From Clostridia bacterium (GTDB lineage Bacteria; Bacillota; Clostridia; Christensenellales; Aristaeellaceae), in assembly GCA_017512985.1 (NCBI GenBank), contig JAFWEJ010000008.1, positions 1 through 64,000 on the forward strand: a stretch of 64,000 nt of DNA, given 5' to 3'. Under the pieces are notes generated by a model. The model made no database searches, was not told the origin of the DNA, and saw only the letters and a list, made by a program, of their open reading frames with translations. The translations under genes were made by a program, and so were the position numbers. This document shows, one piece after another, positions 1 to 13,240 of this stretch (positions within the stretch are counted from its first letter, which is position 1; each line of letters starts with the position of its first letter).

Positions 1-93
1 GACCAGCGCGACAATTCTGCCGCACTCCGCGGCAACGGACTGGATATATTCAAATACGGCCTGCCTGTCCTGCACACTGAAAACTTTTCCCAT
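1..93 (-). CDS. N-terminal part of an unidentified protein, cut by the window edge
   Basis: An open frame begins with ATG at 93 and runs leftward off the window, giving 31 residues that start MGKVFSVQDRQ. A good ribosome binding site (GGAAGGA, 7 bases before the ATG) supports the start. The 128 bases between this start and the next gene hold no other frame I can support. The residues are too few to assign a family; a nucleotidyltransferase-type protein is a guess only. It has the same orientation as the next eight or so genes. Confidence 0.5.
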   Translation of the reverse strand, partial: MGKVFSVQDRQAVFEYIQSVAAECGRIVALV

Positions 94-221
94 TTCTGTA
101 CTTCCTTCCGCAGAACAACTGTTTTCACTGCAGTCATTCCTACAATTTCTGATCCGGCATAGCGAGGTGTTTCAAAATATTTGTTCCGAGATTCCTTGCC
201 AATAAATATCCCTGCAAACCT

Positions 222-959
222 TTATTTATCTTTATCCAGTAAGGAACGTACCTCCGCAATCGCACGAACCGTCAGTTCAACAGAATGATCAAGGAATGAA
301 GCACATTCTTCTCTTGAGAAACCAACAAAGGGGTATTTCCCTTCTTCTAATGTCGGCATGTAATACATCATCCTGATTTTTGCAGGGATAGCGCCCTTTG
401 GAAGATACTCAATATAGTCTGGAAAGGTCTTTAAATCCTGAATTTCAGTGAAATAACCGGAGTTGGGATGCTCATCCAGATATTCTCTTTCAACAACGTA
501 AAAATCTTTCATACGCTCCTTACGGTCGGGAAAGAGTTTCTTAAAGTTGTCCCAGGTTTCATCCATACCGGAAGACTGCTCACGAAGTTCATCAAATGCT
601 TTTGCGCGTTTCCAGGCAGCCGCCACACGTTTTTCGTCCCGGATGGTTCGCTGATGTTCGGCATCCGTTATCAAATGCGCATAATACCCAAGAAGAAAAG
701 ATAATTCTTCTTCTGAACTGATCTCGCCGATTCTTTTCAGGATATATTCATCCCGAAAGGCAGAGCAGTCATCAGCTTTTTTCCTTTTGCCCTTCATCCA
801 ATGTGTGATCTCCCTGGATGGAGTAAACTCGGACAAGTCTTCATTGGGAATATTACAGTCAGGCGCGATATTTCCAACACAAAATTCATGTCTCTTTAGC
901 CATGGCAATATTTCCCATACCCTGTCAGCCACAATTAAATGAGATACCCATTCAGCCAT
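222..959 (-). CDS. Zinc-dependent phospholipase C-like hydrolase
   Basis: The 245-residue product resembles the bacterial zinc-dependent phospholipase C / S1-P1-type hydrolase family. Visible family-like residues are an early His (VSHL, residues 5-8), the GNIAPDC motif near residue 29, a THWM motif near residue 52 and the His/Asp-rich YYAHLITDAEHQ segment near residue 92, which together could form a metal site. There is no signal peptide, so it is probably cytoplasmic, unlike classical secreted toxins of this fold. The start at 959 follows an AGAGGT site. It lies 93 bases downstream of a HAD phosphatase gene and may share its transcript. The substrate is unknown. Confidence 0.6.
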   Translation of the reverse strand: MAEWVSHLIVADRVWEILPWLKRHEFCVGNIAPDCNIPNEDLSEFTPSREITHWMKGKRKKADDCSAFRDEYILKRIGEISSEEELSFLLGYYAHLITDAEHQRTIRDEKRVAAAWKRAKAFDELREQSSGMDETWDNFKKLFPDRKERMKDFYVVEREYLDEHPNSGYFTEIQDLKTFPDYIEYLPKGAIPAKIRMMYYMPTLEEGKYPFVGFSREECASFLDHSVELTVRAIAEVRSLLDKDK

Positions 960-1052
960 TATTTACCTCTTTCAGTATACTGGCCATGCTCTGTATAAAC
1001 TTCGATTTTTCTTTCCAACGGATACCCCGATAAACTGGAATTGTATGATCAC

Positions 1053-1781
1053 TCAGGGACATGTTACAGTGGATGCCCACTTTTTCAGAATATCATACAG
1101 TTCATCGAAAGAAGAAGCGCAGTAGTCAATATCGTATTTCATTCTTGCTTCCATAATATTTCCGGAAGGCATAAACCATACGGAATCCAGGGAAGCGTTT
1201 TTTGCACCGAGCATATCTGAAGAAAGTGAATCGCCGATCATAATGCATGAAGCTTTCGGTTCTCCAATTCGATCCAGGCAAATATCAAAGAAGGCCGCGT
1301 TGGGCTTAGTCACCCCCATATCCTCGCTGATAAACATGCCGTCAATGTACTGGTCAAGGCCTGTAGAAGCAATCCTGCCCTTTGCATTTATGGTTGCGCC
1401 ATTGGAGGCGATGTAGATCCTTGCATCCGGTATATTTTTCCTGAGCTTTCTGACGAATTCCAGCGCACCGTCCATCAGCACGCCGTTTACAGACATTGTC
1501 CTGATAAATTCATCGTTGACCTCCAGGGGATCGAGTCCTGAAGCATCTCCTTCGCACCGACTGAAAACATCCAGGAACCGCTTCGTAAATAGTTCTGCCC
1601 TCGAGATATTCCCTTTTTCAAGTTCCAGCCAGAGGGATTTGTTGTATGCTTTGAAAGCCTGATAAATCTTATCTGAGAATGAAAGCCCATTTGCTCTCAG
1701 GACGATTCCGAGTGCTTTATACTCAGAGGCGTGAAAGTCCAGCAATGTCTGGTCCAGGTCGAAAAGGAAATTATGATGCAT
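1053..1781 (-). CDS. HAD-family phosphatase, YjjG-like pyrimidine nucleotidase
   Basis: A 242-residue haloacid dehalogenase-type hydrolase. Motif I is FDLDQT near the N-terminus, with the nucleophile Asp and the second Asp two residues later. Motif II is the ASNG segment, and the GVTKPNAAFF and IMIGDSLSSD segments supply the Lys and acidic residues of motifs III and IV. The alpha-helical cap after motif I and the GVTKP spelling fit the YjjG type of nucleotide phosphatase, which removes phosphate from non-canonical pyrimidine nucleotides; that specificity is inferred. I place the start at 1781 (MHHNFLFDLD) because GGAGG stands 6 bases upstream; an upstream in-frame start would add 20 unrelated residues. 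It follows the GNAT gene by 35 bases. Confidence 0.8.
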   Translation of the reverse strand: MHHNFLFDLDQTLLDFHASEYKALGIVLRANGLSFSDKIYQAFKAYNKSLWLELEKGNISRAELFTKRFLDVFSRCEGDASGLDPLEVNDEFIRTMSVNGVLMDGALEFVRKLRKNIPDARIYIASNGATINAKGRIASTGLDQYIDGMFISEDMGVTKPNAAFFDICLDRIGEPKASCIMIGDSLSSDMLGAKNASLDSVWFMPSGNIMEARMKYDIDYCASSFDELYDILKKWASTVTCP

Positions 1782-1816
1782 CCTGTGCCTCCACTGATAG
1801 AGAGAAAAATCAAAAG

Positions 1817-2296
1817 TTACAGCACGTGATAATAAGGGCAAATGTTCTCATAGCGCCCGTCCTTCATCCTGAATCCTCCGGGGATTGTTCCAAGCTGAAT
1901 AAACCCCAGCCGCTCGTACAGATGCCGAGCATGGATATTGCTCTCAACAACGGCGTTGAACTGGAGAACACGGAAGCCAAGCTCCTTTGCGGTCTTCAGG
2001 CAGTCCAGCACCAGTTTTTCACCGATATGCTGGCCCCTGCATGCGGATGATACTGCATAACTGGCATTACAGATGTGCCCACAGCGCCCGACGTTGTTAG
2101 GATGCAGGATATACAATCCGACAATCTTACCGTCATTTTCCGCTACGCCGGTATAGCTCTGGGAGGCAAAGAAGTATCCGCCGTTTTCTTCCGTCAGGCA
2201 TTCTTCCTGGGGAAAAGCAATGCCTTCTTCCACCACTTCATTCCAGATTGATGTCATTTCCGGAAGATCGGTTTCCTGATATTTCCTAATCTGCAT
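1817..2296 (-). CDS. GNAT-family N-acetyltransferase
   Basis: A 159-residue acetyltransferase of the GNAT fold, related to phosphinothricin/PanZ-like acetyltransferases. The acetyl-CoA loop is seen as SSACRGQHIGEKL, followed by a helix and the NAVVESNIHARHLYERLGF segment typical of motif B. The C-terminal GRYENICPYYHVL is close to common GNAT endings. I chose the start MQIRKYQ at 2296, where AAAGGAT precedes by 6 bases; another ATG at 2314 adds MKKDDK but has no clear site. The substrate cannot be told. It sits between a secreted-protein gene and a HAD phosphatase gene in one direction with short gaps, so cotranscription is likely. Confidence 0.8.
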   Translation of the reverse strand: MQIRKYQETDLPEMTSIWNEVVEEGIAFPQEECLTEENGGYFFASQSYTGVAENDGKIVGLYILHPNNVGRCGHICNASYAVSSACRGQHIGEKLVLDCLKTAKELGFRVLQFNAVVESNIHARHLYERLGFIQLGTIPGGFRMKDGRYENICPYYHVL

Positions 2297-2368
2297 TTTG
2301 TCATCCTTTTTCATGCCATAGAAGGATATTTTAAAAGTTGCAAAATCAGAGATTTCATTCAGCGCTGA

Positions 2369-3019
2369 TCAGTTCATTTCTACCAAGATCGCTTCCTCAG
2401 GAGAAAAATAATCATTTGAATTGCTGCTTAGTCCTGCAGCCATATATGCCCGTTCAAAAGAAATTTCCGGCACGTTACTCAGGTATACGTATGTGGAATT
2501 CATGGCCGCATTTGGCATTCTCCCGCTGATTTCAAAGCGGTATTGATATGAATATCCTTCACATTCCCAACTGCCATCCGGCATTTCGGTGTACGTCCTT
2601 AAATTCCCTTCGATTGCTTCTTTTACTGCCGGAAGCATACGGAGAACCATCCAGTCGGCCATTTCTACTGTGCCTTCGTACTCATTCCACTTCGGGTTGG
2701 CGATGACCAGAATGCTTCCATTGGTAAGGCCTTCGTCTCCCATGAAGTTCACAATCATGCTGTCCTCACCGTTTCCGGAAAACAAGTTGACAGTTCCGGT
2801 TTCATCTTCCGCAATCGCCAGTACGGGGTTCAGAATGGTTTTGACCCGCAGAAGCAACATACAGTCTCCGCATTCACCCTTGGCGTCAATCCATTCCTGA
2901 ATGGTCACAAACTTTGTGCCTTCAAGTGCGACGACAGCATCCTCCTCGGCAAAGGACTGTGCGTTGAACAGAGTGAAAAGCATAGCAAACGCCAGAATCA
3001 GTGTTAAAAGCCTTTTCAT
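2369..3019 (-). CDS. Secreted protein of unknown function, OB-fold-like
   Basis: The 216-residue product has a clear Sec signal peptide (MKRLLTLILAFAMLFTLFNA, cleavage near SFAEE). The mature part has an alternating strand pattern around residues 45-130 that resembles an OB-fold, but no catalytic motif. I do not recognise a named family. The start at 3019 follows GAGGAGG by 7 bases, and an in-frame start 24 codons upstream would bury the signal peptide. The gene lies immediately downstream of repeat copy A, whose TTGACG/TATGAT promoter points at it with a leader of about 70 nt. This suggests expression from the mobile-element scar. Confidence 0.65.
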   Translation of the reverse strand: MKRLLTLILAFAMLFTLFNAQSFAEEDAVVALEGTKFVTIQEWIDAKGECGDCMLLLRVKTILNPVLAIAEDETGTVNLFSGNGEDSMIVNFMGDEGLTNGSILVIANPKWNEYEGTVEMADWMVLRMLPAVKEAIEGNLRTYTEMPDGSWECEGYSYQYRFEISGRMPNAAMNSTYVYLSNVPEISFERAYMAAGLSSNSNDYFSPEEAILVEMN

Positions 3020-3096
3020 GGTGATACCTCCTCGCAACGATTGATTTATTAAATCAAAGATAGTGATCAAAGTCTCTTCTGTAAAAATCAATAATT

Positions 3097-3126
3097 ATCA
3101 TACCAAATCCATAACTGTTCCGTCAA
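3097..3126 (-). promoter_or_regulatory. Promoter inside scar copy A
   Basis: The minus strand reads TTGACG (3121-3126), 18 bases, then TATGAT (3097-3102) with a TGG extension. It faces the secreted-protein gene that starts at 3019 and lies directly after the recombinase terminator. Confidence 0.7.
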
Positions 3127-3127
3127 A

Positions 3128-3158
3128 GAAAAACGAGAGGGAAGTGCGTATCCCTCTC
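3128..3158 (-). terminator. Terminator of the recombinase remnant
   Basis: An 8-bp perfect stem (3135-3142 with 3151-3158) is followed on the minus strand by GTTTTTC. It begins 15 bases after the recombinase stop codon. Confidence 0.75.
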
Positions 3159-3172
3159 CGGCTGATATCCCT

Positions 3173-3460
3173 TTAGCTGCAGGAATCAATCAGCCGCTGC
3201 ATCCTGTCTGCGGAATCCTGCTTCATCTGCGGGGTCACATGGCCGTAAATATCCAAGGTGAAAGCGACGGTCGCGTGACCCAGGTTTTCCGACACTGTCT
3301 TAATCGGATCCCCGATCCGGATGGCGTTTGTCGCGTATGTGTGGCGGAGGTCATGGAAACGGGTTTCCGGAATCCCAATCTTTGTCACAATTGCTTTCAG
3401 GTGCTTCAGGACCGTGTTGTCGATCAGGTGCCCGCCCGTCTCATTTACAAAGACAAGATG
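3173..3460 (-). pseudogene. C-terminal remnant of a tyrosine recombinase (integrase)
   Basis: About 95 residues match the end of a phage/ICE-type tyrosine recombinase. Visible are HDLRHTYAT (catalytic H-x-x-R), LGHA (second His) and DIYGHV (the nucleophile Tyr), ending in QRLIDSCS. The core-binding domain and the first catalytic Arg are missing. Residues encoded upstream of about 3460 in the open frame (up to 3535) do not resemble the family and look like chance coding. A complete integrase of this type has about 370 residues, so this is a 3' fragment and inactive by itself. Its terminator follows at once. A second, more decayed tail of the same gene lies at 5433-5670. Confidence 0.85.
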
Positions 3461-3562
3461 ATCAACTGAACAATATGTATTATATACCAATATTGTCATG
3501 GAATCATTGGACAAAAAAGTGGTATAATTGCACAATATAACAATAGCATGCGCTGTTATTCG

Positions 3563-3681
3563 ATTTGTCGATCGTCGTTTATTTCAAAAGATAGTGATCA
3601 AAGGCTCTTCTGTAAAAAACAATAAAGATCATGCCCGTCTGTTTTTTCCACAAATTTGTCGATGGTCAATTATCTCAAAAG
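3563..3681. repeat. Imperfect 28-bp direct repeat bracketing scar copy B
   Basis: Two direct copies, 3563-3590 and 3654-3681, share ATTTGTCGAT, GTC, TTAT and TCAAAAG and differ at 4 of 28 positions. Scar copy B (3589-3632) lies between them. The arrangement could be a duplicated recombination site, but no core crossover can be proven. Confidence 0.5.
3589..3632 (-). repeat. Scar repeat copy B (partial)
   Basis: The block repeats the tail of copies A and C (AGATAGTGATCAAAG, CTCTTCTGTAAAA, CAATAA) but stops before the promoter and terminator part. It lies upstream of the recombinase remnant at 3173-3460. Confidence 0.7.
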
Positions 3682-3738
3682 CTACACGGCTATCATTCGA
3701 CGCAGGTTCAGCCGAATCCTGTATGCCGAATCTGCATT

Positions 3739-3771
3739 CAAAAAACACCAGCCTGTGATGACCGGTGCTGA
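3739..3771 (-). terminator. Probable terminator after the DUF3784-like gene
   Basis: On the minus strand a CACCGG-type stem with mismatches pairs with GCTGGTG and is followed by TTTTTTG. It stands 47 bases after the stop codon at 3818. The stem is imperfect. Confidence 0.45.
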
Positions 3772-3817
3772 AAAATGTATTCCGAGTTTACTCACGATCA
3801 GTTGCATTGACAATATG

Positions 3818-4141
3818 TTAATGATTATATCTGATTCCCGCCAGCATGAGCAGCACAATTCCAATTACTAATCCGGCTGTCATAGGGATATAGGCGAAAA
3901 CGGAATGTATAAAGGCGGAACAGATCCCGGAAAGAATAAACCCAATCCCAATCACGAATACTCCAATCCCTGAAAGCGTACAGTAAGCCGGTTGGTTTTC
4001 TTTACTTACCTTGTCACAATGATGACGGATGATAAGTTCCATCTTCTGCTTTTTCCAGATTACCAGGCCCAATCTGATAAATATGAAGCCAAGCAATACA
4101 AATAAGGCACTAATCAGAATAAACCATATGATATCGTCCAT
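3818..4141 (-). CDS. Small membrane protein, DUF3784-like
   Basis: The 107-residue product has three hydrophobic segments (about residues 4-26, 53-75 and 80-102). A WKKQKMELI stretch follows the first helix, as in DUF3784 membrane proteins of Firmicutes. No function is known for that family. I chose ATG at 4141, which follows GAGGGG closely; a TTG at 4165 is in frame but has no usable site. It lies 141 bases downstream of the secreted-protein gene in the same direction, within the region of recombinase scars, and may be cargo of a former element. Confidence 0.6.
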   Translation of the reverse strand: MDDIIWFILISALFVLLGFIFIRLGLVIWKKQKMELIIRHHCDKVSKENQPAYCTLSGIGVFVIGIGFILSGICSAFIHSVFAYIPMTAGLVIGIVLLMLAGIRYNH

Positions 4142-4282
4142 ATTCCCCTCATAAATCCTGATCAATCCTGGTCAGCAAAATATATTTTCCGGGTTTCCTG
4201 ACAATCAGGTGTTCGGATCCATTTGTTTAACAGGTGTTTTGCCATCCGGAGACAGGAACGCGTCATGCGGATTATTGCGGCT

Positions 4283-5224
4283 TTATCCGTGACCATAGCG
4301 TTCCGGTTCCCGAATCTCTATGACGTCACCATTGGAAGGATCAATCAGGACCGGATAGGCGAAAAACTCTACAGAAGGATCAAAACCCTCGAGCGAAGGA
4401 TCAGCGCGTTGATCCTGAATGCTGATCACCCATAAAGGTTCCGCAAAAACCTCTGGAAGGACTCCTTCATTTTCATCATATTCATCATAGAAACCGAATG
4501 TGTCAAACAGGATGAACGCGCTTTCACCCATCACCAGAGGATCCTCCGGCGAACTGCTCCACTTGTCCAGGCATGCAGAACGGGCTGTCTCAAATGCTTC
4601 GCCACGGGAAATATAACCGTCATAATGAACGTCCCAGTTAAAATTCATATCCACATACGCCATAAGTTCAGGCGCATCCTTCGGATTCTCCGAAGTTTTT
4701 GCTATCAGGATCGCTATTGCTTCGCTCACATCTCCGAAAGAAATCAATATACAATTATCATCCATTTGGGCAATGCAGTTCATCGAATAATCAGCGGCAA
4801 TGCTGCCGCGAAATGTGCAAAATACTTCTTCAGCCCATTTTATTTCTGCTTCTGTCAGTTCATCTTTCGGGATGATCTGTTCACTGAGGTGATTCAATAC
4901 CGGCAACCCGTATGCAGCTTTTCGATAGTATACGACTAAGTCGTCATTGTCGCCATCTATCTGCATATAGGCAAGAATGTTGTTATCCCCATCCATTGCC
5001 TGAATATTCCATAGTCCGATTCCTTCGTCAAGGACTGATATCTCAGTGCCTTTTGGCATCCAGGAGGTTGCAAAAATCTGTTCAGCTGTTTCATACACAG
5101 TGTTTTTCCCGGCAAGGCGTGAATCAGGGGTATCTTCTGCGAATGAAAAGCTCCAGGAAGCTATACTTACAGAGACAGCAAAAACCAATATGAGTAGAAT
5201 TGCGATCGCAAAATGCTTTTTCAT
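4283..5224 (-). CDS. Secreted protein of unknown function
   Basis: A 313-residue protein with a Sec signal peptide (hydrophobic core AIAILLILVFAVSVSIA, cleavage near SFAEDTP). The mature part is acidic and carries two segments like PepSY or DUF-type domains. The first is YISRGEAFETARSACLDKW around residue 205, and the second is the closing YPVLIDPSNGDVIEIRE, which resembles the end of PepSY repeats; this is only a resemblance. I chose ATG at 5224, 9 bases after AAGGAG; the TTG three codons upstream touches the site. The promoter of scar copy C points at this gene, with a leader of about 120 nt. Confidence 0.65.
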   Translation of the reverse strand: MKKHFAIAILLILVFAVSVSIASWSFSFAEDTPDSRLAGKNTVYETAEQIFATSWMPKGTEISVLDEGIGLWNIQAMDGDNNILAYMQIDGDNDDLVVYYRKAAYGLPVLNHLSEQIIPKDELTEAEIKWAEEVFCTFRGSIAADYSMNCIAQMDDNCILISFGDVSEAIAILIAKTSENPKDAPELMAYVDMNFNWDVHYDGYISRGEAFETARSACLDKWSSSPEDPLVMGESAFILFDTFGFYDEYDENEGVLPEVFAEPLWVISIQDQRADPSLEGFDPSVEFFAYPVLIDPSNGDVIEIREPERYGHG

Positions 5225-5353
5225 CAGCTTCAACTCCTTTTCATGGATTCCACTGATATAAACGAATTATCCTGCTAATCTGTTTCTTCCATACCGATGG
5301 GCAGGAAAATCATAAGACAGTGATCAAAGTCCCTTCTGCAAAATTCAATAATG

Positions 5354-5383
5354 ATCATACCAAATCCATATCCGCTCCGTCAA
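5354..5383 (-). promoter_or_regulatory. Promoter inside scar copy C
   Basis: The minus strand reads TTGACG (5378-5383), 18 bases, TATGAT (5354-5359) with TGG before it. It faces the secreted-protein gene starting at 5224. Confidence 0.7.
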
Positions 5384-5418
5384 AGAAAAAGGAGAGGGAA
5401 GCATTATGCTCCCTCCCC
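5384..5418 (-). terminator. Terminator of the second recombinase remnant
   Basis: On the minus strand GGAGGGAGC pairs imperfectly with GCTTCCCTCTCC and is followed by TTTTTCTTTG. Position and spelling match the terminator at 3128-3158. Confidence 0.6.
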
Positions 5419-5432
5419 GGTATATTGGCGTT

Positions 5433-5670
5433 TCAGCTGCAGGAATCGATCGGCCGCCGCATCCGGTCAATTGAATCCTGCTTCATGCCGGCATCACATA
5501 TCTCCATTCGATCAGGGCGTGTGCGACTGTTGCATGACCCGGGCTTTCTGAAACAGTCCTGGTCGGATCGCCGATCCGGATGGCGTTTGTGACATATGTA
5601 AGGAGGAGGCCATGGAAGCGGGTTTCCGGAATGCCGATTTTTTTTACGCCATCAGGGCTTTTGTAATGCC
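5433..5670 (-). pseudogene. Decayed C-terminal remnant of the same tyrosine recombinase
   Basis: Reading the minus strand, KIGIPETRFH and TNAIRIGDP are shared with the remnant at 3173-3460. HDLRHTYAT has become HGLLLTYVT, LGHA has become PGHA and the Tyr motif is lost. An in-frame stop and a shift follow before the matching ending PIDSCS and TGA. The catalytic residues are gone, so it is a dead fragment. It starts right next to the stop of the flavoprotein gene and ends 13 bases before scar copy C. Confidence 0.8.
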
Positions 5671-5675
5671 GCGGT

Positions 5676-6293
5676 TTACCTGATAAAGTTGAAGAACTGA
5701 GTATGCTTTACATCCGGTTTGCCGAACTGTTCTTTTCCGGCACGGATGGATTTGATCAGGAATGCCATATTCGCGGCCATATTCCGGATGGTTTCACAGC
5801 CTTCCAGGTCTTCCAGGACATCTTCCCCTTTATAACCATGCACGTCATTCCAGTAGGTGCTGGGAACGGTGGGCATCCCGTTGATCCCGAAGAACTGGTT
5901 CATAATTTCAAAAGTGGCACTGTTCCCGCCGCGCCTGCAGGAAACCACGGAAGCACCGACCTTCATGTGCAGATCGCAGCCGCAGCTGAAGAAAAGCCGC
6001 TGCATAAAGGAGAGTACCGTTCCGTTGGGCATGCTGTAATACACAGGCGATCCGATAATAATCCCGTTCGCCTCCGCAAGCTTGGGGGCCGTTTCGTTCA
6101 CCAGGTCATTGAACACACACTTTCCGATTTCATGGCACCGGCGGCAGGCAATACAGCCCCGGATATCCTTGTTACCTACATGGATCTCCTCGGTTTCGAT
6201 GCCCTCTTTGTTCAGCACCTCCGCAGCCAGCGTCAGAGCAGTGTGGATACAGCCTTTTCCGTCCGGGCTGCCGTTGATCATCAGCACTTTCAT
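5676..6293 (-). CDS. NAD(P)H-dependent FMN reductase-type flavoprotein
   Basis: The 205-residue product is a flavodoxin-fold protein of the NADPH-dependent FMN reductase / iron-sulfur flavoprotein type. The phosphate-binding loop is MINGSPDGKGCIHTA near the N-terminus, and the FMN-contacting GSPVYYSMPNGT follows near residue 81. The segment GCIACRRCHEIGKC (residues 47-60) has four Cys in a spacing like that of iron-sulfur flavoproteins and may bind a cluster or a metal. It probably reduces quinones, azo or nitro compounds in the cytoplasm. The start at 6293 follows GGAG by 8 bases. It lies 19 bases after the truncated MATE gene and probably shares the promoter of scar copy D. Confidence 0.8.
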   Translation of the reverse strand: MKVLMINGSPDGKGCIHTALTLAAEVLNKEGIETEEIHVGNKDIRGCIACRRCHEIGKCVFNDLVNETAPKLAEANGIIIGSPVYYSMPNGTVLSFMQRLFFSCGCDLHMKVGASVVSCRRGGNSATFEIMNQFFGINGMPTVPSTYWNDVHGYKGEDVLEDLEGCETIRNMAANMAFLIKSIRAGKEQFGKPDVKHTQFFNFIR

Positions 6294-6312
6294 GAGAACG
6301 CTCCTTCTTTTT

Positions 6313-6573
6313 TCATTCTTTATCCTTCAACATGGATTGAACGGCCTTCATTACGGGCTTTGATCTTCGGATATGCCTGAATGTATCTGCACCGCAACCG
6401 TGCAGTACCATAAAGATCGGATAAATCAGGTTTACCGACTCCAGCTGTGTAACACCCAGCAGGTTGGAGACAAAAAAGCCGTCCACCACCTGGAAGGAAG
6501 TCAGGACAAGCATGTTCCCGATGCTGGGGAGCGAATACCGCAGCAACTTTTGATATGTAAAATGTTCCGACAT
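6313..6573 (-). pseudogene. Truncated MATE-family transporter (N-terminus only)
   Basis: Residues 1-58 (MSEHFTYQKLLRYSLPSI, then VVDGFFVSN, then VNLIYPIFMV) match the start of MATE multidrug exporters, which normally have about 450 residues and 12 helices. After LHGCGAD the sequence no longer resembles the family, and a stop comes at residue 87. More than 80% of the gene is therefore deleted. The start at 6573 is preceded by CAGGA. An export function is not possible from this fragment. Confidence 0.75.
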
Positions 6574-6663
6574 TTCGATCCTGGCCAATATTGTCACCTG
6601 CCGATTCGTACTTCGTACAGTTTTTGCACCGAAAACAGTTTAGAAATATGGGATAATTTTTTT

Positions 6664-6715
6664 TATTATACCAAATCCATCCCCATTCCGTCAAAGAAAA
6701 AAGGAGAGGGAAGGA
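6664..6715 (-). repeat. Scar repeat copy D (promoter and T-run part)
   Basis: On the minus strand CTTCCCTCTCC, TTTTTTC, TTGACG, 18 bases and TGG TATAAT match copies A and C. The tail after the promoter differs. The stop codon of the CPBP protease gene lies 5 bases before the block, so that gene occupies the place the recombinase has in the other copies. Confidence 0.75.
6665..6694 (-). promoter_or_regulatory. Promoter inside scar copy D
   Basis: TTGACG (6689-6694), 18 bases, TATAAT (6665-6670) with a TGG extension on the minus strand. This is the best match to consensus among the copies. It faces the truncated MATE gene and the flavoprotein. Confidence 0.75.
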
Positions 6716-6719
6716 CAAG

Positions 6720-7571
6720 TCATCTCCGGTTCCCGGCCGTGTATTCAAGCAGCCTGCCGACATGGCGGGTCTCAAAGAACATGTCCTTATTCGCCATGAC
6801 GATGATTATGGTCACCGCTGTGATGACGACTGTCTCCACACACTTTGTCTCCGGCGTCATGGCGATCTTTTCCTGCATGAAGTTGACGAACAGATGGAAA
6901 ATCATGCAGGCCAGTATTGAACGGTCACTTGCGAGATAAACCCAGGTGATGACGAATCCCATGGGAATGCCGCTGACAAAAAAGTTGACCACATACAGCG
7001 GATTGACCATCAGGCCGGCCTGATAGGTTCCCTGGATGAAAATGAGAGGAAAATGCCAGAAAGACCAGAGTGCACCGAAGATCATGGATTCCCAGAACCA
7101 GTTCATGCTGTTGCCGATCGAATCCTCGCAATATCCTTTCCAGCCGACCTCCTCGATGATCGAAGCGACAGCAATGGTGAAAAACGCTCCCGCTATCCCG
7201 ACACCGGTAAATGAAAAGTCTTCCGTGAAAGAAAACTGATTCATGGACTGTCCAACGAGAAGCGATAACAGGATGGACACGACGATCACTGCCGCAAAGA
7301 CGATAACCGCCCACAGGACATTGAGCCATTTCACCTTATAGAATCCGACGATCTTATTCTTAAGATCCTGTTTCAGGGCATCCGACCCCGATACCATAAC
7401 GAAGACTGTGGATACCGCCGCAGGCGCAATCAGCCCGGCAAGCATAAGTACCGGACTGACCTTTTCAGAAGTAAATATGGCCGGTATCCAGAATATCCAT
7501 GTAAAAAGATATGCCAGCGCAAAGAAAAGGACCGGTCTGTACCTGTATGTGCCTGAAGCCTGATTATTCAT
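6720..7571 (-). CDS. CPBP-family intramembrane metalloprotease
   Basis: The 283-residue membrane protein has about eight helices and the three motifs of the CPBP / Abi (type II CAAX protease) family. They are EEVGWKGY (the EExxxR-type motif with Trp in the usual Arg region), FWHFP, and FHLFVN. These Glu and His residues would hold the catalytic metal. Family members process prenylated or peptide substrates or give bacteriocin self-immunity; which applies here is unknown. The start at 7571 (MNNQASGTY) follows GGAGG by 6 bases and overlaps the end of the TetR gene by 8 bases. The two therefore form one translationally coupled unit, and the TetR regulator probably controls this protease. Confidence 0.85.
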   Translation of the reverse strand: MNNQASGTYRYRPVLFFALAYLFTWIFWIPAIFTSEKVSPVLMLAGLIAPAAVSTVFVMVSGSDALKQDLKNKIVGFYKVKWLNVLWAVIVFAAVIVVSILLSLLVGQSMNQFSFTEDFSFTGVGIAGAFFTIAVASIIEEVGWKGYCEDSIGNSMNWFWESMIFGALWSFWHFPLIFIQGTYQAGLMVNPLYVVNFFVSGIPMGFVITWVYLASDRSILACMIFHLFVNFMQEKIAMTPETKCVETVVITAVTIIIVMANKDMFFETRHVGRLLEYTAGNRR

Positions 7572-8184
7572 GCGATACCTCCATATCATGCTTGTCTATC
7601 AGATCATATACAAAACTCATTGTTCCCGTTTCCGCGCCGAGCAGTTTCTCGGTCAAATCGATGAAAACGGATATATCACGCGCGCTGAACGCATGTTCGT
7701 TAAACAGATCGTTGCTGACGATAAGAAGCATCCTTACACGCTCGGGGATGTTGTCGCAGGAAAAGATTCCTTCATCCGCTCCCGCTTTCACGGTTTCCGA
7801 CAAAAGGGGAACCAGAGCCTCAATCAGTTTCTTCCTGATTTTGTCGTGCATCAGCACGTTTTCCGGCCGCATCAGCGCGTCGCTGATCGGCTGCTCAGCC
7901 TCGGCCGGCCTGACAGATGTAATGATCCCGACGATCTTCTGCGGCACCGGAATGCCGGATTCCAGGATCCGCCTTGCCGCTTCCGTCTCGCTTTCGATCA
8001 TCATCCCTATGACATTTTCAAGCATCTGTTCCTTGCTGGAAAAATAATAATAATACGTGCCCTTGGCGATCTGTGCCGCCTCTATGATTTCATCCACACT
8101 CGTATCCTCATATCCGCGTGAAAGGAACATATCATAGGCGATCTTCAAAAGCTCCTGCTTCCTTTTTTCTCCCTTTTTCATCAT
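7564..8184 (-). CDS. TetR-family transcriptional regulator
   Basis: The 206-residue product has the TetR N-terminal DNA-binding domain: ELLKIAYDMFLSRGYEDTSV, then IAKGTYYYYFSSKEQML at about residues 10-58. A divergent all-helical ligand domain follows. The start at 8184 (MMKKGEKRKQE) follows GGAGG by 5 bases; an upstream in-frame start would lie inside the promoter. Two palindromes flank its promoter, so it very probably represses its own operon with the CPBP protease. The inducer is unknown. Confidence 0.9.
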   Translation of the reverse strand: MMKKGEKRKQELLKIAYDMFLSRGYEDTSVDEIIEAAQIAKGTYYYYFSSKEQMLENVIGMMIESETEAARRILESGIPVPQKIVGIITSVRPAEAEQPISDALMRPENVLMHDKIRKKLIEALVPLLSETVKAGADEGIFSCDNIPERVRMLLIVSNDLFNEHAFSARDISVFIDLTEKLLGAETGTMSFVYDLIDKHDMEVSHE

Positions 8185-8198
8185 ACTCACCTCCATAA

Positions 8199-8271
8199 TC
8201 GACCGTTGGTCGGTTTTATGATACAACAACAGTTTTCTGGCGTCAACCATTTTTATCGACTTTGGGTCGAT
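8199..8271 (-). promoter_or_regulatory. Promoter of the tetR-CPBP operon with two operator palindromes
   Basis: On the minus strand TTGACG (8241-8246), 17 bases and TATCAT (8218-8223) form a strong sigma-A promoter. One palindrome (CGACC, 3 bases, GGTCG, within 8199-8213) sits just after the -10. A second (ATCGAC, 5 bases, GTCGAT, 8255-8271) sits upstream of the -35. Both share GAC/GTC half sites as in many TetR operators. Confidence 0.75.
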
Positions 8272-8455
8272 TTTGTATCAGAAAATATACACTGTGATTA
8301 TTCGCACGCCGGAGAGCCGCCTGACAGGGGAGAAAACGCCGGACAACTGGTAAATATTACCTGTTGAAGTTTCAAACAATTTGAAATACACTATATTTAG
8401 TAATGAACGCGAACAGTTTATCCAATATATAGGCTGAGAAATGAGGGCTTCTAAG

Positions 8456-10048
8456 ATGAAAAAGAACCTGTGCCTGGCGCTGTGCCTGATCCTGCTGACG
8501 GGACTGCTTCCGATTCCGGCCATGGCTCTTGATATACCGGACCCGACAATAATTTATGACGCGGACCATGACTGGGAAGGGACGCTCGTGATCAGTGAAA
8601 GCATGACGGTCGGGATCAGGGGAGTTGTCCACAGCGGCCAGAACGGCTCTGCCATCAAAATCTGCAACGGAGCGACTGTCAACCTGGTATTTGAGGGGGA
8701 TACGATACTGGAAGGAAACGCCGGCAAGATATCCGCCGGGATCGAAGTGGAAGAGGGCAGCACCGTGAATATTTACGGAAAGGACGGATCCACCCTGACT
8801 GTGACCGGCGGGAAATACAGCGCCGGTATCGGCGGTATCGGATACGGCCAAACAAGCGCAGCCAATCCAAAGGCCGGGAACGTCCATATCTGGTGCGGAA
8901 CCATTACGGCAATCGGCGGGGACAAAGGCGCGGGGATCGGCTCGGGATACCATTCTTCCGCGGGCGTCATCCATATTCACGGAGGAAACATCACAGCCCT
9001 TGGAACCGGCAGCGGAGCCGGTATCGGCTCGGGATACGGTACTTCAGGCGGAGCTGCCTATGCCGTAGGGTTCTATAACGGCGGGCAGATTACGATCTCC
9101 GGCGGGACGGTGCGGGCTGCGGGCTGCCATATAAACTTTGACAACGTCGACCAATACAACCTGGAGTCCCTGTATGGAGAAGGCTATTCAGATACCTTCA
9201 GCGCAGGTATCGGCGGCGGATACGGGGCTTCCTCCGGAACGATCGTCATTGAGGGAGACGCGGATGTGACAGCTGTAGGCATCAGCGGAGGTTCGGGTAT
9301 CGGTACAGGCCGGGGCACGTCCAAAACAAATAATTATGACGCAAGCACCACCCCGGTGAATATTACGATCCGGGACAACGCCAAAGTGGTCGCGCTGGCG
9401 ACGGAAGACAGGCGTTCAAATATAATCGGTAACGGCGTCGGCGCCGCGATCGGCACAGGGTACGGCGTGAGCCTGGAGGACGGGAGCGCCCCGACGGGAA
9501 GCGTGCGGATTCTTGGAAACGCCAATGTTTACGCAAGCACGTATAAAGAAGCCAACGCTATCGGCACGGGTTTTTATGTGACAACGCGAGAAAAACAGGA
9601 GGACGGCACGATCCTGCCGCTTCCCATGAGAGGCCCGGCCAACGGGCTGGACGTGCTGGAGATCGGTCCGGAATGTACGATCGTCGCGGTCTGTGAAGGA
9701 ACAAGGACTGCCATCGATGAGACGAAGCTGCCGCTGGCAGGTGTGGCAGTCGTGGACAACAATCAGATCCGGGAGTCGGAAAACGCGCCGGACGACCTGA
9801 AGGCCGGGAGCGTGCTGTTCAGCGCGGGTACAGTCTCCAGCGGAGAAACAGGCGGCGAAAAGATCCCTGTTACGGCAGCTGAACCGCGGCAGTTCGCGGT
9901 ACAGCTGCCGGGGAATACCGGAGCATTGTTCTTTGCGGACGACACGCGTATCCTGCTGAGCAGCCAGGGGGGATCCTTCCCGGCAGTTCCCGGCAGGAAA
10001 AACACAGGAGATCATCGACGTAATCCCTATAGATTATTATGCGGTTAA
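8456..10048 (+). CDS. Repeat-rich surface protein, N-terminal part (frameshifted)
   Basis: A 530-residue product with a signal peptide (CLALCLILLTGLLPIPAMA). A long body repeats the pattern GAGIGSGYG or AGIGGGYG followed by a strand such as ITISGGTV. About eight such units between residues 110 and 420 suggest a right-handed beta-helix or carbohydrate-binding surface domain. The start at 8456 follows GAGGG by 8 bases. The last residues after SSQGG are out of register: the sequence that continues the protein lies in another frame and encodes the sorting signal at 10056-10430. Dropping one G from the G6 run at 9967-9972 joins the frames into a protein of about 657 residues. Confidence 0.75.
   Translation: MKKNLCLALCLILLTGLLPIPAMALDIPDPTIIYDADHDWEGTLVISESMTVGIRGVVHSGQNGSAIKICNGATVNLVFEGDTILEGNAGKISAGIEVEEGSTVNIYGKDGSTLTVTGGKYSAGIGGIGYGQTSAANPKAGNVHIWCGTITAIGGDKGAGIGSGYHSSAGVIHIHGGNITALGTGSGAGIGSGYGTSGGAAYAVGFYNGGQITISGGTVRAAGCHINFDNVDQYNLESLYGEGYSDTFSAGIGGGYGASSGTIVIEGDADVTAVGISGGSGIGTGRGTSKTNNYDASTTPVNITIRDNAKVVALATEDRRSNIIGNGVGAAIGTGYGVSLEDGSAPTGSVRILGNANVYASTYKEANAIGTGFYVTTREKQEDGTILPLPMRGPANGLDVLEIGPECTIVAVCEGTRTAIDETKLPLAGVAVVDNNQIRESENAPDDLKAGSVLFSAGTVSSGETGGEKIPVTAAEPRQFAVQLPGNTGALFFADDTRILLSSQGGSFPAVPGRKNTGDHRRNPYRLLCG
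9967..9972 (+). other. G6 tract where the surface-protein frame breaks
   Basis: With five G instead of six, translation runs on as QGDPSRQFPAG, then TQEIIDVIPIDYYAVKEIV, into the downstream frame without a stop. This identifies the run as the most likely site of the shift. Confidence 0.6.
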
Positions 10049-10055
10049 GGAAATT

Positions 10056-10430
10056 GTGGAATACACCCAGGGAAGCGGAGTAAATACGGTTATCACTGTC
10101 AAGCGGACCGTGAACGACAGCATGGCCTGGCCAAATTATACCTATTCGACAATCGACGGCGGCAGGATACCGGATGAGGGCCATAAAGCCGATAAGGGCA
10201 GCCTTGTCCTGACGCTGATGGGCAAATACCTGGACACGCTTTCCCCGGGAAGCCATACAGTACAGGTCAGCTTTACAGACGGATCGGCTGACGTTACGCT
10301 GAACATTAAACCGAAGCCGGTGCCGAAAACCGGGGATAAGGCAAATCCGTTGCTGTGGCTGGCAATGATTTTGCTGGGTTTGGCGGGGATTTGCGCAAAC
10401 GCCGCAAAACGACAAAAGAAACAAAGATAA
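10056..10430 (+). CDS. C-terminal part of the surface protein with a sortase signal
   Basis: The frame is the natural continuation of the gene at 8456. Its open reading extends upstream of 10056 to the G6 tract, so the GTG at 10056 is probably not a real start. The 124 residues contain a small beta-domain (GSHTVQVSFTDGSADVTL) and then PKTGD, a hydrophobic helix and RQKKQR. This is a variant LPXTG cell-wall sorting signal with Pro-Lys-Thr-Gly. The protein would be anchored to peptidoglycan by sortase if the two halves are expressed as one chain. A terminator follows 30 bases after the stop. Confidence 0.7.
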   Translation: MEYTQGSGVNTVITVKRTVNDSMAWPNYTYSTIDGGRIPDEGHKADKGSLVLTLMGKYLDTLSPGSHTVQVSFTDGSADVTLNIKPKPVPKTGDKANPLLWLAMILLGLAGICANAAKRQKKQR

Positions 10431-10460
10431 AAAACACCGGGAACAGAAATGCAATTCCAA

Positions 10461-10490
10461 AACTCCTTCCCCTGCGGGAAGGAGTTTATA
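10461..10490. terminator. Strong hairpin between convergent genes
   Basis: AACTCCTTCCC (10461-10471) pairs perfectly with GGGAAGGAGTT (10476-10486) over a 4-base loop. T-rich sequence lies on the plus side and TTTTGG on the minus side, so it can serve both the surface-protein gene and the acyltransferase gene. Confidence 0.75.
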
Positions 10491-10512
10491 TGCCTGCGGG
10501 TTTATTCTGCAG

Positions 10513-11664
10513 TCACGCTGTATTTCGCAGGAAGCGTTTTCCGAACGACGCGCGGAGCCGGTCCCAGGCCCATTTCAGGGCCAGGGGCCCCAGAATGCCG
10601 AACGCCAGGTATACCAGTTTGAAGTTGCTGCTCAGGCCCCAGTAATACCATTCCGATTCCTGAAAGGCTTCAACATCAAAATACATCAGCGGGACGATGT
10701 GGTTGTTCACCGCCAGCAGGATACAATTCAGGATATTAAAGAACAGGATATGGAAGCCCATGATCCAGAAGGTGTTGCAGGACATATAATTGACGAACCT
10801 GCTTTCGTAAACCGGTTTTCCAACCAGATCAACAAGCGTCAGCCAGAACAGTATCCCAACAAGGGAAGACACCAGCGGCGTAACGATATAAGGGCTTGTG
10901 AAACCGGAAAGATCATTGATGCTGTCAAATGCAACGTCATAAGAATTCGGCAGATACATCATACGGGCCATATTTACGGCGAGCAGAACGAACAGAAGCG
11001 CAATCTTCCACCCGCCGGACAGGCCTGAATGCTTTTTCTCAAGATGATCCCTGTATATGACGCCCATTTCGATAAAAGGAAGGAAGAACAAAACTTTCAG
11101 CGGCACAAGGAACCACGTAATGGAATCCGGTTCCGTCGTTTTTGCAAAATACACGACAAGGAGGTGCAGGGCGCAGAAGAGCGCAAGCATCACCCAGCTG
11201 TTCCAGATTTTACAAAGGAGCTTTTTCAGGACCGCATAGACGACAAGGGCCGCAAACAGGGATATGACAAACCACATAGGCTCGACAATCGATGCAAACG
11301 ATCCGACCGTTACGATCCTTTCCAGCGCATACTCCAGGTACCATGAAGGGACAGATGGAACCTCACCGGCCTTTATCCAGTTGATCAGCTGCTGGAGCAG
11401 GAAGACGCACAGGGATATGCCCACATAAGGCACCAGAAGCGTTTTAATCTTCTTCCAGAGATACTTCGGCAAACTGGTGGAAGAATCCACCTTGTTAAAA
11501 TATCCGGAAATAAAGACAAACATGGGCATAAAAAAAGAATTATAAGGGATGAAATCTCCAAAGAGATTAAATGTGATCCATGTATGATGATCAACGACCA
11601 TAAAGATCCCAAGCGCAGACAGCAACATGAATTTCTTGTTTGATTTGCTTCGCCGTTCCGCCAT
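10513..11664 (-). CDS. Acyltransferase 3-family membrane protein
   Basis: A 383-residue integral membrane protein with about ten helices, of the acyltransferase 3 family (OafA/NodX type). The family His-Asp-type active region is visible near the N-terminus as VVDHHTW, followed by FFMPMFVFISGYF, a hallmark of the family. Such enzymes transfer acetyl or other acyl groups to cell-envelope polysaccharides or glycolipids. The start at 11664 has GGGGGAG about 10 bases upstream. It has its own promoter and no cotranscribed partner, so the acceptor cannot be deduced. Confidence 0.85.
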   Translation of the reverse strand: MAERRSKSNKKFMLLSALGIFMVVDHHTWITFNLFGDFIPYNSFFMPMFVFISGYFNKVDSSTSLPKYLWKKIKTLLVPYVGISLCVFLLQQLINWIKAGEVPSVPSWYLEYALERIVTVGSFASIVEPMWFVISLFAALVVYAVLKKLLCKIWNSWVMLALFCALHLLVVYFAKTTEPDSITWFLVPLKVLFFLPFIEMGVIYRDHLEKKHSGLSGGWKIALLFVLLAVNMARMMYLPNSYDVAFDSINDLSGFTSPYIVTPLVSSLVGILFWLTLVDLVGKPVYESRFVNYMSCNTFWIMGFHILFFNILNCILLAVNNHIVPLMYFDVEAFQESEWYYWGLSSNFKLVYLAFGILGPLALKWAWDRLRASFGKRFLRNTA

Positions 11665-11706
11665 GATTCAACAACTCCCCCGAAAAGTCATGATTCAATA
11701 GACTGC

Positions 11707-11736
11707 ATCATATCAAAAGCATACGGATTCAGTCAA
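11707..11736 (-). promoter_or_regulatory. Promoter of the acyltransferase gene
   Basis: TTGACT (11731-11736), 18 bases, TATGAT (11707-11712) on the minus strand, with a TGA extension before the -10. The leader is about 40 nt. Confidence 0.7.
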
Positions 11737-11758
11737 AGATTATCAGCAATTTCGAACA

Positions 11759-11787
11759 GCAAAAAAACCGCTGCCGGGGCGGCGGTT
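11759..11787 (-). terminator. Terminator after the lipoprotein gene
   Basis: On the minus strand AACCGCCGCC pairs with GGCAGCGGTT (one mismatch) and is followed by a run of seven T. It lies 20 bases beyond the stop at 11807. Confidence 0.8.
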
Positions 11788-11806
11788 CAGCATGGCAGGG
11801 AGGAAG

Positions 11807-12238
11807 TTATCTTGAAAACGTGTACATCCCGGTGGCGGAGTCAACGATCCAGCCTTTATACATCTCCACGGTGAGAAGATGTTCGCCTTCCGGGGATTCG
11901 AAGGAGTAGAACCAGGTGCCTCCGGTTACGGAGAGGTCATTTGCTTTGCCGATGATCACGCCGCTGATCGCAATGCTGCGGATATTTTCGATCTCTTCGG
12001 GCGTCATCTCGATTTCGCTTGGGCCTGTCTCACAGTCGCTTTTATAGCCTTTGACAACGGCTGTTTCCAGGCCTTCGCGCCTGCCGTGGCAGAATTTCCA
12101 GACGGGAACAGCTTCCGCGGCGGCATCCGACGCGGCCTGCCCGCCGGGATTACCGGACGGGACGTTCTCAACGCGGGTGCAGGCGGCCAGGCACAGGAGG
12201 AGCAGAACCAGAACTGCGCTCAGGAGATTGCGTTTCAT
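11807..12238 (-). CDS. Lipoprotein of unknown function
   Basis: The 143-residue product has a lipoprotein signal peptide (SAVLVLLLLCLAAC, lipid-modified Cys at about residue 20) and a short low-complexity linker. A small domain of about 95 residues follows with the segments EIEMTPEEIENIRSIAISG and GGTWFYSFESPEGEHLLTVE. I do not recognise the family. I place the start at 12238, where a GGAAGGG site stands 8 bases upstream; an upstream in-frame start would precede the signal peptide by 12 residues. It has its own promoter and terminator, so it is a single-gene unit. Confidence 0.7.
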   Translation of the reverse strand: MKRNLLSAVLVLLLLCLAACTRVENVPSGNPGGQAASDAAAEAVPVWKFCHGRREGLETAVVKGYKSDCETGPSEIEMTPEEIENIRSIAISGVIIGKANDLSVTGGTWFYSFESPEGEHLLTVEMYKGWIVDSATGMYTFSR

Positions 12239-12332
12239 GACAGTATCCCTTCCTTTCAATCTGTAAGACGGCAAAAACCGGAGAAAGTTCCCGGAACGAA
12301 TATGATCTTTTTTTCGTATTCTTTACGGACCC

Positions 12333-12361
12333 ATGATAAAGGTTTTCCTGCCGCTTTGCAA
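12333..12361 (-). promoter_or_regulatory. Promoter of the lipoprotein gene
   Basis: TTGCAA (12356-12361), 17 bases, TATCAT (12333-12338) on the minus strand. The perfect palindrome at 12381-12402 lies 20 bases upstream of the -35. Confidence 0.65.
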
Positions 12362-12380
12362 GATTTTCGGCAAGGCGGGC

Positions 12381-12402
12381 CATCTTACGAAAACGTAAGA
12401 TG
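12381..12402. promoter_or_regulatory. 22-bp perfect palindrome in a divergent intergenic region
   Basis: CATCTTACG and CGTAAGATG are perfect inverted arms of 9 bp around AAAA. No T-run follows on either strand. It sits between the divergent promoters of the lipoprotein gene and the YczE-like gene, so an operator is more likely than a terminator. Confidence 0.5.
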
Positions 12403-12520
12403 AAAGTCACCGGAAATTAAGGTTGACCTGCCAGAATGGATCCGGAAACAGACCGGAGGATCACGTACGGGCCGCAGGATGAACTTTCCCGGTATTTTTG
12501 TGCGGGAGCGGAAAGGATTG

Positions 12521-12529
12521 TGGTATAAT
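12521..12529 (+). promoter_or_regulatory. Extended -10 promoter of the yczE-like gene
   Basis: TGG TATAAT (12521-12529) is a perfect extended -10. No good -35 is seen at the usual distance. The leader to the ATG at 12566 is about 30 nt. Confidence 0.6.
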
Positions 12530-12565
12530 GCTCCCTGCATACGATTTCGGGAGGAGGCGGCAGGA

Positions 12566-13240
12566 ATGCGCGCAAAGGTTGTCCGGCAATGGCTGCGGAT
12601 CATCTTCGGACTGCTGGTGTTTGCCTTCGGCGTACATCTGACGATCTTCGCGAATATCGGACTGGCCCCGTGGGACTGCCTGGGGATGGGCATCGCGAAG
12701 CACACGCCGCTGAATTACGGCTTTTCCATGACCCTGATAGCGCTGGTGATCCTGGGGATCGACCTGCTTCTGAAGGAACGGATCGGATTCGGAACGATCA
12801 TTGACGCGGTGCTGACGGGCAATTTCGTGCAGATGTACAACGACCTGAACCCGCTGGGAGAGAACCGGAGCATATGGCTCGGGATCCTGATCATGCTGTG
12901 CGGCTTTGTGTTCATGGCCCTGGGCATGTGGATCTACATGAAGGGCGAACAGTGCTGCGGGCCGCGGGATTCCCTGCTGGTCGGCCTGGGGAAAAGGCTT
13001 CCGAAAGTGCCGATCGGTATTGTTGAGATCATGCTCTGGGCAGCGGTGCTGCTGGCCGGGTGGCTGCTTGGCGGACCGGTCGGGATCGGAACGCTGATCA
13101 GCACATTCGGCGCGGGTCTGGTGATGCAGGTGGTCTATAACATGCTGAAGTTCGAACCCCGGAAGGTGGTCCACAGGGACGTGCTGCAGACGCTCCGGAC
13201 GCTGTTTCCGCATAATGCAGAAGGAGAAATCGAAACATGA
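12566..13240 (+). CDS. YczE/YitT-type membrane protein
   Basis: The 224-residue protein has five or six hydrophobic helices and the start RQWLRIIFGLLVFAFGVHLT followed by GLAPWDCLGMGI. Both are typical of the YczE/YyaS membrane protein family of Firmicutes. The family role is unclear; YczE of Bacillus affects surfactin-related functions. The start at 12566 follows GAGGAGG by 8 bases; a longer frame from 12479 has no site and would contain the promoter. Its last four bases overlap the start of the secreted-protein gene (ATGA), so the two are translationally coupled. Confidence 0.8.
   Translation: MRAKVVRQWLRIIFGLLVFAFGVHLTIFANIGLAPWDCLGMGIAKHTPLNYGFSMTLIALVILGIDLLLKERIGFGTIIDAVLTGNFVQMYNDLNPLGENRSIWLGILIMLCGFVFMALGMWIYMKGEQCCGPRDSLLVGLGKRLPKVPIGIVEIMLWAAVLLAGWLLGGPVGIGTLISTFGAGLVMQVVYNMLKFEPRKVVHRDVLQTLRTLFPHNAEGEIET

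Follow-up and report, generated by a model that had tools for sequence, protein, structure and literature searches.

Stranded integrase ends and a repeated promoter class in a tRNA-Ser(CGA)-anchored island probably shared by a Clostridia bacterium and its relatives

Introduction

A short block is repeated near the start of contig JAFWEJ010000008.1 (contig C9 here) of an Aristaeellaceae bacterium (Clostridia, Christensenellales; assembly GCA_017512985.1), where, in the two full copies, the 3′ end of a tyrosine recombinase gene, a terminator, a promoter-like sequence and a conserved tail follow one another upstream of a different gene each time. The question raised by this locus, which was analysed as a window comprising positions 1 to 64,000 of the contig, is what such blocks are and how they came to stand there. 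The first-pass annotation, whose interpretation is partly supported here, regarded them as a module by which an integrating element expresses genes captured next to its integrase end. In the analysis presented below, they are probably stranded integrase-end remnants of elements targeting tRNA-Ser(CGA), which lie in a tRNA-anchored accessory island and have kept their gene-slot promoters.

Repeat blocks and integrase remnants in the window

The repeats are real and lie where they had been annotated, with three copies of the promoter-like sequence TTGACG-18-TGG-TATRAT and one tail-only copy, all on the minus strand and the three in one orientation within 3.7 kb. Copies 1 (3057-3144) and 2 (5314-5401) share 90% identity over 88 bases. 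The identity of copy 3 (6663-6701) to copy 1 is 87% in 39 bases, and the tail-only copy (3587-3635), which is without an intact -35, is 90% identical to the tail of copy 1 over 49 bases. The tail of copy 1 (3057-3096; repeat families D3 and D5) is a probable 5′ leader, and that of copy 2 was delimited at 5314-5353 by repeat comparison. A 31-base direct repeat (84%; 3563-3593 and 3654-3684) flanks the tail-only copy.

The order of recombinase 3′ end, terminator, promoter and tail is present in copies 1 and 2, and the integrase ends do exist, although they adjoin the annotated blocks rather than lying inside them. Scar 1 (3173-3475, minus strand) is homologous to residues 318-418 of a 419-aa integrase from uncultured Clostridiales bacterium RUG13884 (genome G030), with an open reading frame (ORF) and 87% amino acid identity, and the ORF containing it (3173-3535, minus strand) matches Pfam Phage_integrase (E 3.3e-14). 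Scar 2 (5432-5647, minus strand) is the frameshifted, 5′-truncated 3′ end of a related integrase gene, the truncation points differing between the two, and the window itself contains 3′ fragments only and no intact tyrosine integrase. Each scar is followed by a putative intrinsic terminator on the same strand, at 3135-3158 for scar 1 (8-bp stem, then a T run; -15.3 kcal/mol, z -4.0) and at 5391-5418 for scar 2 (hairpin and T run; z -4.6), while copy 3 has no terminator hairpin (z -0.5).

A pattern search places promoter 1 at 3097-3126 and promoter 2 at 5354-5383, both of the form TTGACG-18-TATGAT with an extended -10. Copy 3 (6665-6716) consists of a remnant of the terminator 3′ arm and promoter 3 (TTGACG-18-TATAAT, 6694-6665), the promoter being kept where hairpin and integrase are gone. 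TG precedes the -10 in all three promoters, and the 18-base spacer noted in the first-pass annotation holds in 3/3. Profile R1, for which 29 promoters from other genomes and none from the window's genome were used, recognizes them at E 1.4e-9, 5.8e-10 and 5.1e-7, respectively, as well as a fourth promoter of the class that is without a scar (11707-11738, minus strand; E 3.6e-6) and lies 5′ of a 383-aa ORF (10513-11664). Four matches to the pattern CTTTGAC-N14-TTTGGTATNAT, with at most one mismatch, are found in the whole 2.63-Mb genome. Each lies in the window's first 12 kb (3097, 5354 and 6665 exact; 11707 with one mismatch), and the reversed control has none.

Selection on the promoter, as had been proposed, is suggested weakly. 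From the promoter on, copies 1 and 2 are 83% identical (65/78), compared with 69% (202/293) in the integrase and terminator, but in gap-free stretches alone the values are 90% and 80-84%, respectively. Decay of the integrases may have begun at their 5′ ends and reached different positions, while all three copies would have retained the promoter to express the gene that follows it and two of them the hairpin, where it would block read-through. Such decay fits the data, as the truncations differ, promoter and tail are better conserved, and copy 3 has kept the promoter but lost hairpin and integrase.

An intact relative of the scar lineage

A complete relative with an intact recombinase is present in G030, which carries the 419-aa integrase of the scar lineage. 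There, the integrase stop codon is followed by a terminator resembling those of the scars (z -1.4), a promoter with an 18-base spacer (TTGACG-18-TATTAT), a 286-aa ORF, three GGGTA-type repeats, a hairpin and tRNA-Ser(CGA). The element is 17.3 kb long, its far side marked by a 21-bp repeat of the tRNA 3′ end, and encodes a D5-type primase, helix-turn-helix (HTH) proteins, a serine recombinase, a type IV restriction protein and an HNH protein. No virion protein was found among 13 proteins of the G030 contig, 11 of them inside the element, that were compared with Pfam (four also with PHROGs). In this one intact case of the lineage, the integrase end is adjoined by a gene slot that has a promoter of its own. 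Elements of the G030 kind would integrate into tRNA-Ser(CGA) at its 3′ end, their integrase gene oriented towards the tRNA, and the slot between the integrase stop and the arm-type repeats would comprise a terminator, an extended -10 promoter and a gene.

The integrase is followed by a tRNA or tmRNA gene in 13 of the 22 loci scanned, at a distance of 51-272 bases past the integrase stop in 12 of these 13 (L045 and L053 among them are one contig) and of 1203 bases in G030 (L049). The gene slot is assigned to the scar/G030 lineage because G030 has an ORF between integrase and tRNA. Locus L008 has kept the terminator and not the promoter. The integrase relatives found are of phage type and many stand beside tRNA genes (no search aimed at the IntI-specific domain was made), and a scan of viral contigs yielded one relative at 52% identity.

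Comparison with G030 also bears on a possible, though rather less than probable, origin of the blocks, in which a scar formed once was duplicated within the island together with promoter and tail, and the promoter was retained by chance. The clustering of three co-oriented copies accords with a duplication, as does the tail, which is common to copies 1 and 2 and absent from the intact G030 element. In the shared integrase columns, identity is 69% between copies 1 and 2, 78% between copy 1 and G030 and 74% between copy 2 and G030; when L008 is included, the three four-point sums (calculated by hand) are close, a result that decay after duplication could also give. However, in the integrase part each copy is closer to G030 than to the other, the two are truncated at different points, and their downstream genes differ. 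The integrase parts are compatible both with two separate elements and with a single scar that was duplicated.

The tRNA-Ser(CGA) island and the probable position of the window

The 3′ end of tRNA-Ser(CGA) is, in genomes G001 and G002, the starting point of a series of small genes that mostly share one orientation. With a simple gene finder, 88 genes were called in the G001 stretch and 86 in the G002 stretch, of which 68 and 62, respectively, point to the tRNA. The window is syntenic with the far flanks of both islands, namely from 12.6 to 56 kb with G001 459-524 kb and from 12.6 to 49 kb with G002 279-335 kb, the synteny covering these stretches as far as they were fetched. The conserved flank is mostly 71-86% identical, with a stretch of 90-93% at 33.1-36.5 kb, and positions 1-12600 are assigned to the hypervariable island as the synteny begins at 12.6 kb.

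As the window is the start of contig C9, the genome's own tRNA-Ser(CGA) was predicted to lie at the end of another contig. It was found at 18285-18373 of contig C3 (20,048 bases), 1.7 kb from the contig end, adjoined by an element end of the G030 type with three AGGGTA-type repeats and a hairpin. Such repeats are absent beside tRNA-Ser(CGA) in five further genomes (0/5; G001, G002, G007, G020 and G036; 190-250 bases read), so that among the seven genomes this element end is kept only in the two with island integrases of the lineage. The direct repeat of the tRNA is 21 bp in G030, and in the window's genome the tRNA-side end, on C3, is the one that was read. The scars of the window very probably lie in a hypervariable, tRNA-anchored island, given the G030-type end beside the genome's own tRNA and the synteny from 12.6 kb on. 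Conserved flanks, the same place and differing content, as in hotspots of horizontal gene transfer (HGT), are all found here, across a contig gap in the window's own genome.

Two further observations concern the tRNA region. Positions 228-606 of the window are 93.7% identical to G002 203841-204220, which adjoins tRNA-Ser(CGA), and a recent transfer of this segment is possible. In three genomes, tRNA-Ser(CGA) is preceded by an incomplete repeat of its region, which starts about 290-310 bases ahead of the full copy (G007:C3:19451-19561, G021:C100:17152-17262 and G020:C1:2856199-2856275).

A promoter class at island genes with and without recombinase

Profile R1 has 43 matches at E≤0.01 in seven genomes (5 in the window's genome, 8 in G001, 10 in G002, 6 in G007, 2 in G020, 2 in G030 and 10 in G031), of which 31 are in tRNA-Ser(CGA) islands (4 in the window's genome, 7 in G001, 7 in G002, 5 in G007, 1 in G030 and 7 in G031). 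Both G020 matches are within 53 kb of tRNA-Ser(CGA), the far flank of this genome not having been found, and in G031 the tRNA is located at 708 kb with the far end of the island taken from G001. All 31 island matches and the two of G020 point to the tRNA, those of the window's genome according to the presumed order of C3 and C9. Since many training sites of R1 come from the islands of G001, G002, G007, G021 and G031, the window's genome and G020 are the cleaner tests, the three block copies of the window not being mutually independent in this count.

A hidden Markov model (HMM) of the integrase family has no member in the island stretches of G001, G002, G007, G021 and G031 (partial for G007 and G031), and among the island stretches covered its members occur only in the window's genome and G030. 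PF00589 has no match in the islands of G001 or G002, each of which contains seven R1 matches, so the promoter stands at island genes with or without a recombinase. It is not a recombinase trait, and the idea of a promoter module borne by the recombinase is not supported. A PF00589 match to a tyrosine recombinase (G031:C1:666680-667132; 265-aa frame, minus strand) lies inside the island of G031, a longer one, in the direction opposite to the island promoters.

These results weigh on the model of the first-pass annotation, where the integrase element carries an outward promoter as a platform for captured genes, in the manner of the integron promoter Pc. G030 does have the integrase, terminator, promoter, ORF and tRNA that it calls for. 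The model is nevertheless quite improbable, as G030 is the single intact case, the tRNA or tmRNA closely follows the integrase stop in 12/13 loci, most promoter copies have no recombinase of the family nearby, L008 keeps the terminator without the promoter, and 7/8 distinct indels, which are described below, are without a shared core.

The 18-base spacer is not universal in the class, since related island promoters have 17. A CT-rich box, TTCCCTC, is present 5′ of the -35 at 9/66 promoters compared with 45/18508 background windows, and at 5/53 once the integrase-linked promoters are removed; it occurs about 10-20 bases before the -35 at the integrase-free promoters L074, L082, L090, L104 and L120, as in the window blocks. 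The leader CTTT(T)(T)GAT follows 5/56 promoters compared with 79/4952 background windows, 56 of the 66 having been kept after removal of L021, L044, L049, L052 and L146 (which do not belong to the promoter class) and of near-identical leaders, and it is also found at 9/261 module-free gene starts (P 0.08). A second repeated promoter family, like CTTTGACTGAGGCTTCTCCGGTATGGTATKAT, is located 5′ of different genes in several genomes (L105, L109, L115, L121 and others).

Gene turnover and likely exchange at promoter repeats

Aligned stretches of close species are mostly 93-97% identical (88-100% overall) and are interrupted by insertions of 0.8 to ~10 kb. The 11 sets of junctions that were read, from three related islands, represent eight distinct events, in seven of which no common recombination core is found at the junctions. 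One of these seven is a replaced stretch with one end a short way past a promoter module, the module and the gene before it being swapped together. In G007, two promoter modules enclose a 2594-bp unit that is absent from G001 and G031. The empty sites of these two genomes are different chimeras of the two modules, with the switch point just after the -10 in G001 and at the left edge of the module in G031. Chimeric empty sites of this kind are the expected leftovers of recombination between promoter repeats, here twice and at different places. The same promoter class stands before integrase-free genes, and its repeats may serve as exchange sites for homologous recombination, as suggested by this one locus.

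Counts of breakpoints, which omit opposite-strand high-scoring segment pairs (HSPs) and HSPs of less than 200 bases, were compared between modules and other gene starts. Breakpoint starts lie within 60 bases of 6/36 modules and 15/146 other gene starts (P 0.38), and breakpoint ends within 60 bases of 2/36 and 25/146 (P 0.11), respectively. Within 100 bases, breakpoints are found at 13/36 modules and 34/146 other gene starts (P 0.14), and in a further test at 6/36 and 35/146 (P 0.50). Four clean indels, measuring 4.0, 1.7, 1.3 and 0.8 kb, are not at promoter modules. Among 83 island proteins scanned with Pfam (L136-L140), taken from 95 minus-strand ORFs of at least 70 aa in G001 and G021, 16 match Acetyltransf_1 (GNAT), 4 match APH and 2 belong to the beta-lactamase family.

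A cassette array free of recombinases, in which the co-oriented promoter repeats act as short homology and RecA-type recombination swaps units behind a working promoter, is suggested by the G007 unit between modules with its different chimeric empty sites in G001 and G031, by the replaced stretch with one end shortly past a module, and by the small, varied island genes. This explanation is nonetheless unlikely, as breakpoints are not significantly enriched at modules and the four clean indels lie away from them. A related view, which we hold to be similarly doubtful, takes the platform promoter (CT-rich box, TTGAC[GT]G and extended -10) as both expression signal and homology for swapping, the tRNA elements only supplying genes and promoters.

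The islands of G031 (L143:15182-15966) and G007 (L179:6337-7121) contain, at different places, one and the same 785-bp segment with 100% identity. In G031 it splits a stretch that is unbroken in G001, and it is probably a small mobile element.

Genes downstream of the promoters in the window

All genes placed downstream of promoters 1 to 3 are on the minus strand. Promoter 1 is followed by a 216-aa ORF (2369-3019) and promoter 2 by a 316-aa ORF (4283-5233), both with a signal-peptide-like start as judged by eye and neither with a Pfam match at 0.001. Downstream of promoter 3 is a putative FMN reductase gene (FMN_red, 5676-6293; PF03358, E 6.5e-25), which agrees with the flavoprotein of the first-pass annotation, with a 94-aa ORF (6313-6597) between promoter and reductase gene; the MATE remnant also named there has no Pfam match at E 0.001. 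Neither the 286-aa G030 protein nor any of three window proteins has a PADLOC match that would indicate defence genes as cargo, and Rfam has zero matches at E≤1 in positions 1-13000 of the window.

Weighing the evidence

The explanation that we consider the best, remnants of tRNA-Ser(CGA)-targeting elements stranded in an island whose genes may have arrived with such elements, has several observations standing against it. The conserved tail is found in no intact element, and only loosely in G001, and the gene slot is intact in one case only, that of G030. C3 and C9 do not overlap, and for this reason their adjacency is inferred. In 17 further genomes, R1 has 19 matches at E≤0.01 in eight genomes, of which one (G036:C11) is on a contig with tRNA-Ser(CGA), that site being part of the R1 training set, as are other sites of G036 and G043; the promoter class is therefore not tied to the tRNA-Ser(CGA) island throughout the genus. 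Breakpoints, finally, show no significant enrichment at promoters in 4/4 tests.

Comparison with known systems

As in integrons, a tyrosine recombinase is found near a promoter here, and small genes in one orientation, of GNAT and APH type, form an array. Integrons differ in that the integrase here is of phage type and targets a tRNA, the indels have no shared core, and most promoters are without a recombinase. No common sequence was noticed by eye in intergenic stretches of less than 130 bases in G001 and G021 (no attC model was run). As no common intergenic element was noticed and the indel junctions share no core, an integron was rejected as the identity of this system.

Phage morons are single prophage genes enclosed by their own promoter and terminator. 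The slot likewise has one gene with a promoter and a terminator to itself, but no virion gene is found among the proteins scanned, and its location is beside the integrase and the arm repeats.

There is also a resemblance to tRNA-targeting elements and phage satellites with an accessory gene by the integrase, as G030 possesses the integrase, the tRNA repeat, a primase, HTH proteins and restriction-type genes. Unlike these, the window keeps integrase ends only, and in G030 an ORF with its promoter lies between the integrase and the arm-type repeats. The literature searched, which included few subscription papers, holds no description that we found of the promoter class, of its presence at integrase ends or of exchange between promoter repeats, and no paper on genomic islands in Aristaeella was found.

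Hotspots that are anchored at a tRNA and contain element remnants are already known. Horizontal transfer hotspots were surveyed in 80 species, and half of them are without evidence of mobile elements (Oliveira et al. 2017, PMC5635113). The island described here agrees with such hotspots in its single place, conserved flanks, fast turnover and position adjoining a tRNA, and in the lack of a PF00589 match in the G001 and G002 islands, and it differs in its repeated co-oriented promoters and in the one locus with switch points inside them. Many hotspots have no integrases, and the turnover of their genes is an open question (PMC5635113). One island of a gut bacterium unites stranded element ends, repeated promoters and one likely exchange point with an anchoring tRNA and with an element still intact in a relative, and through such an island the question of hotspot turnover becomes testable, partly from sequence data alone.

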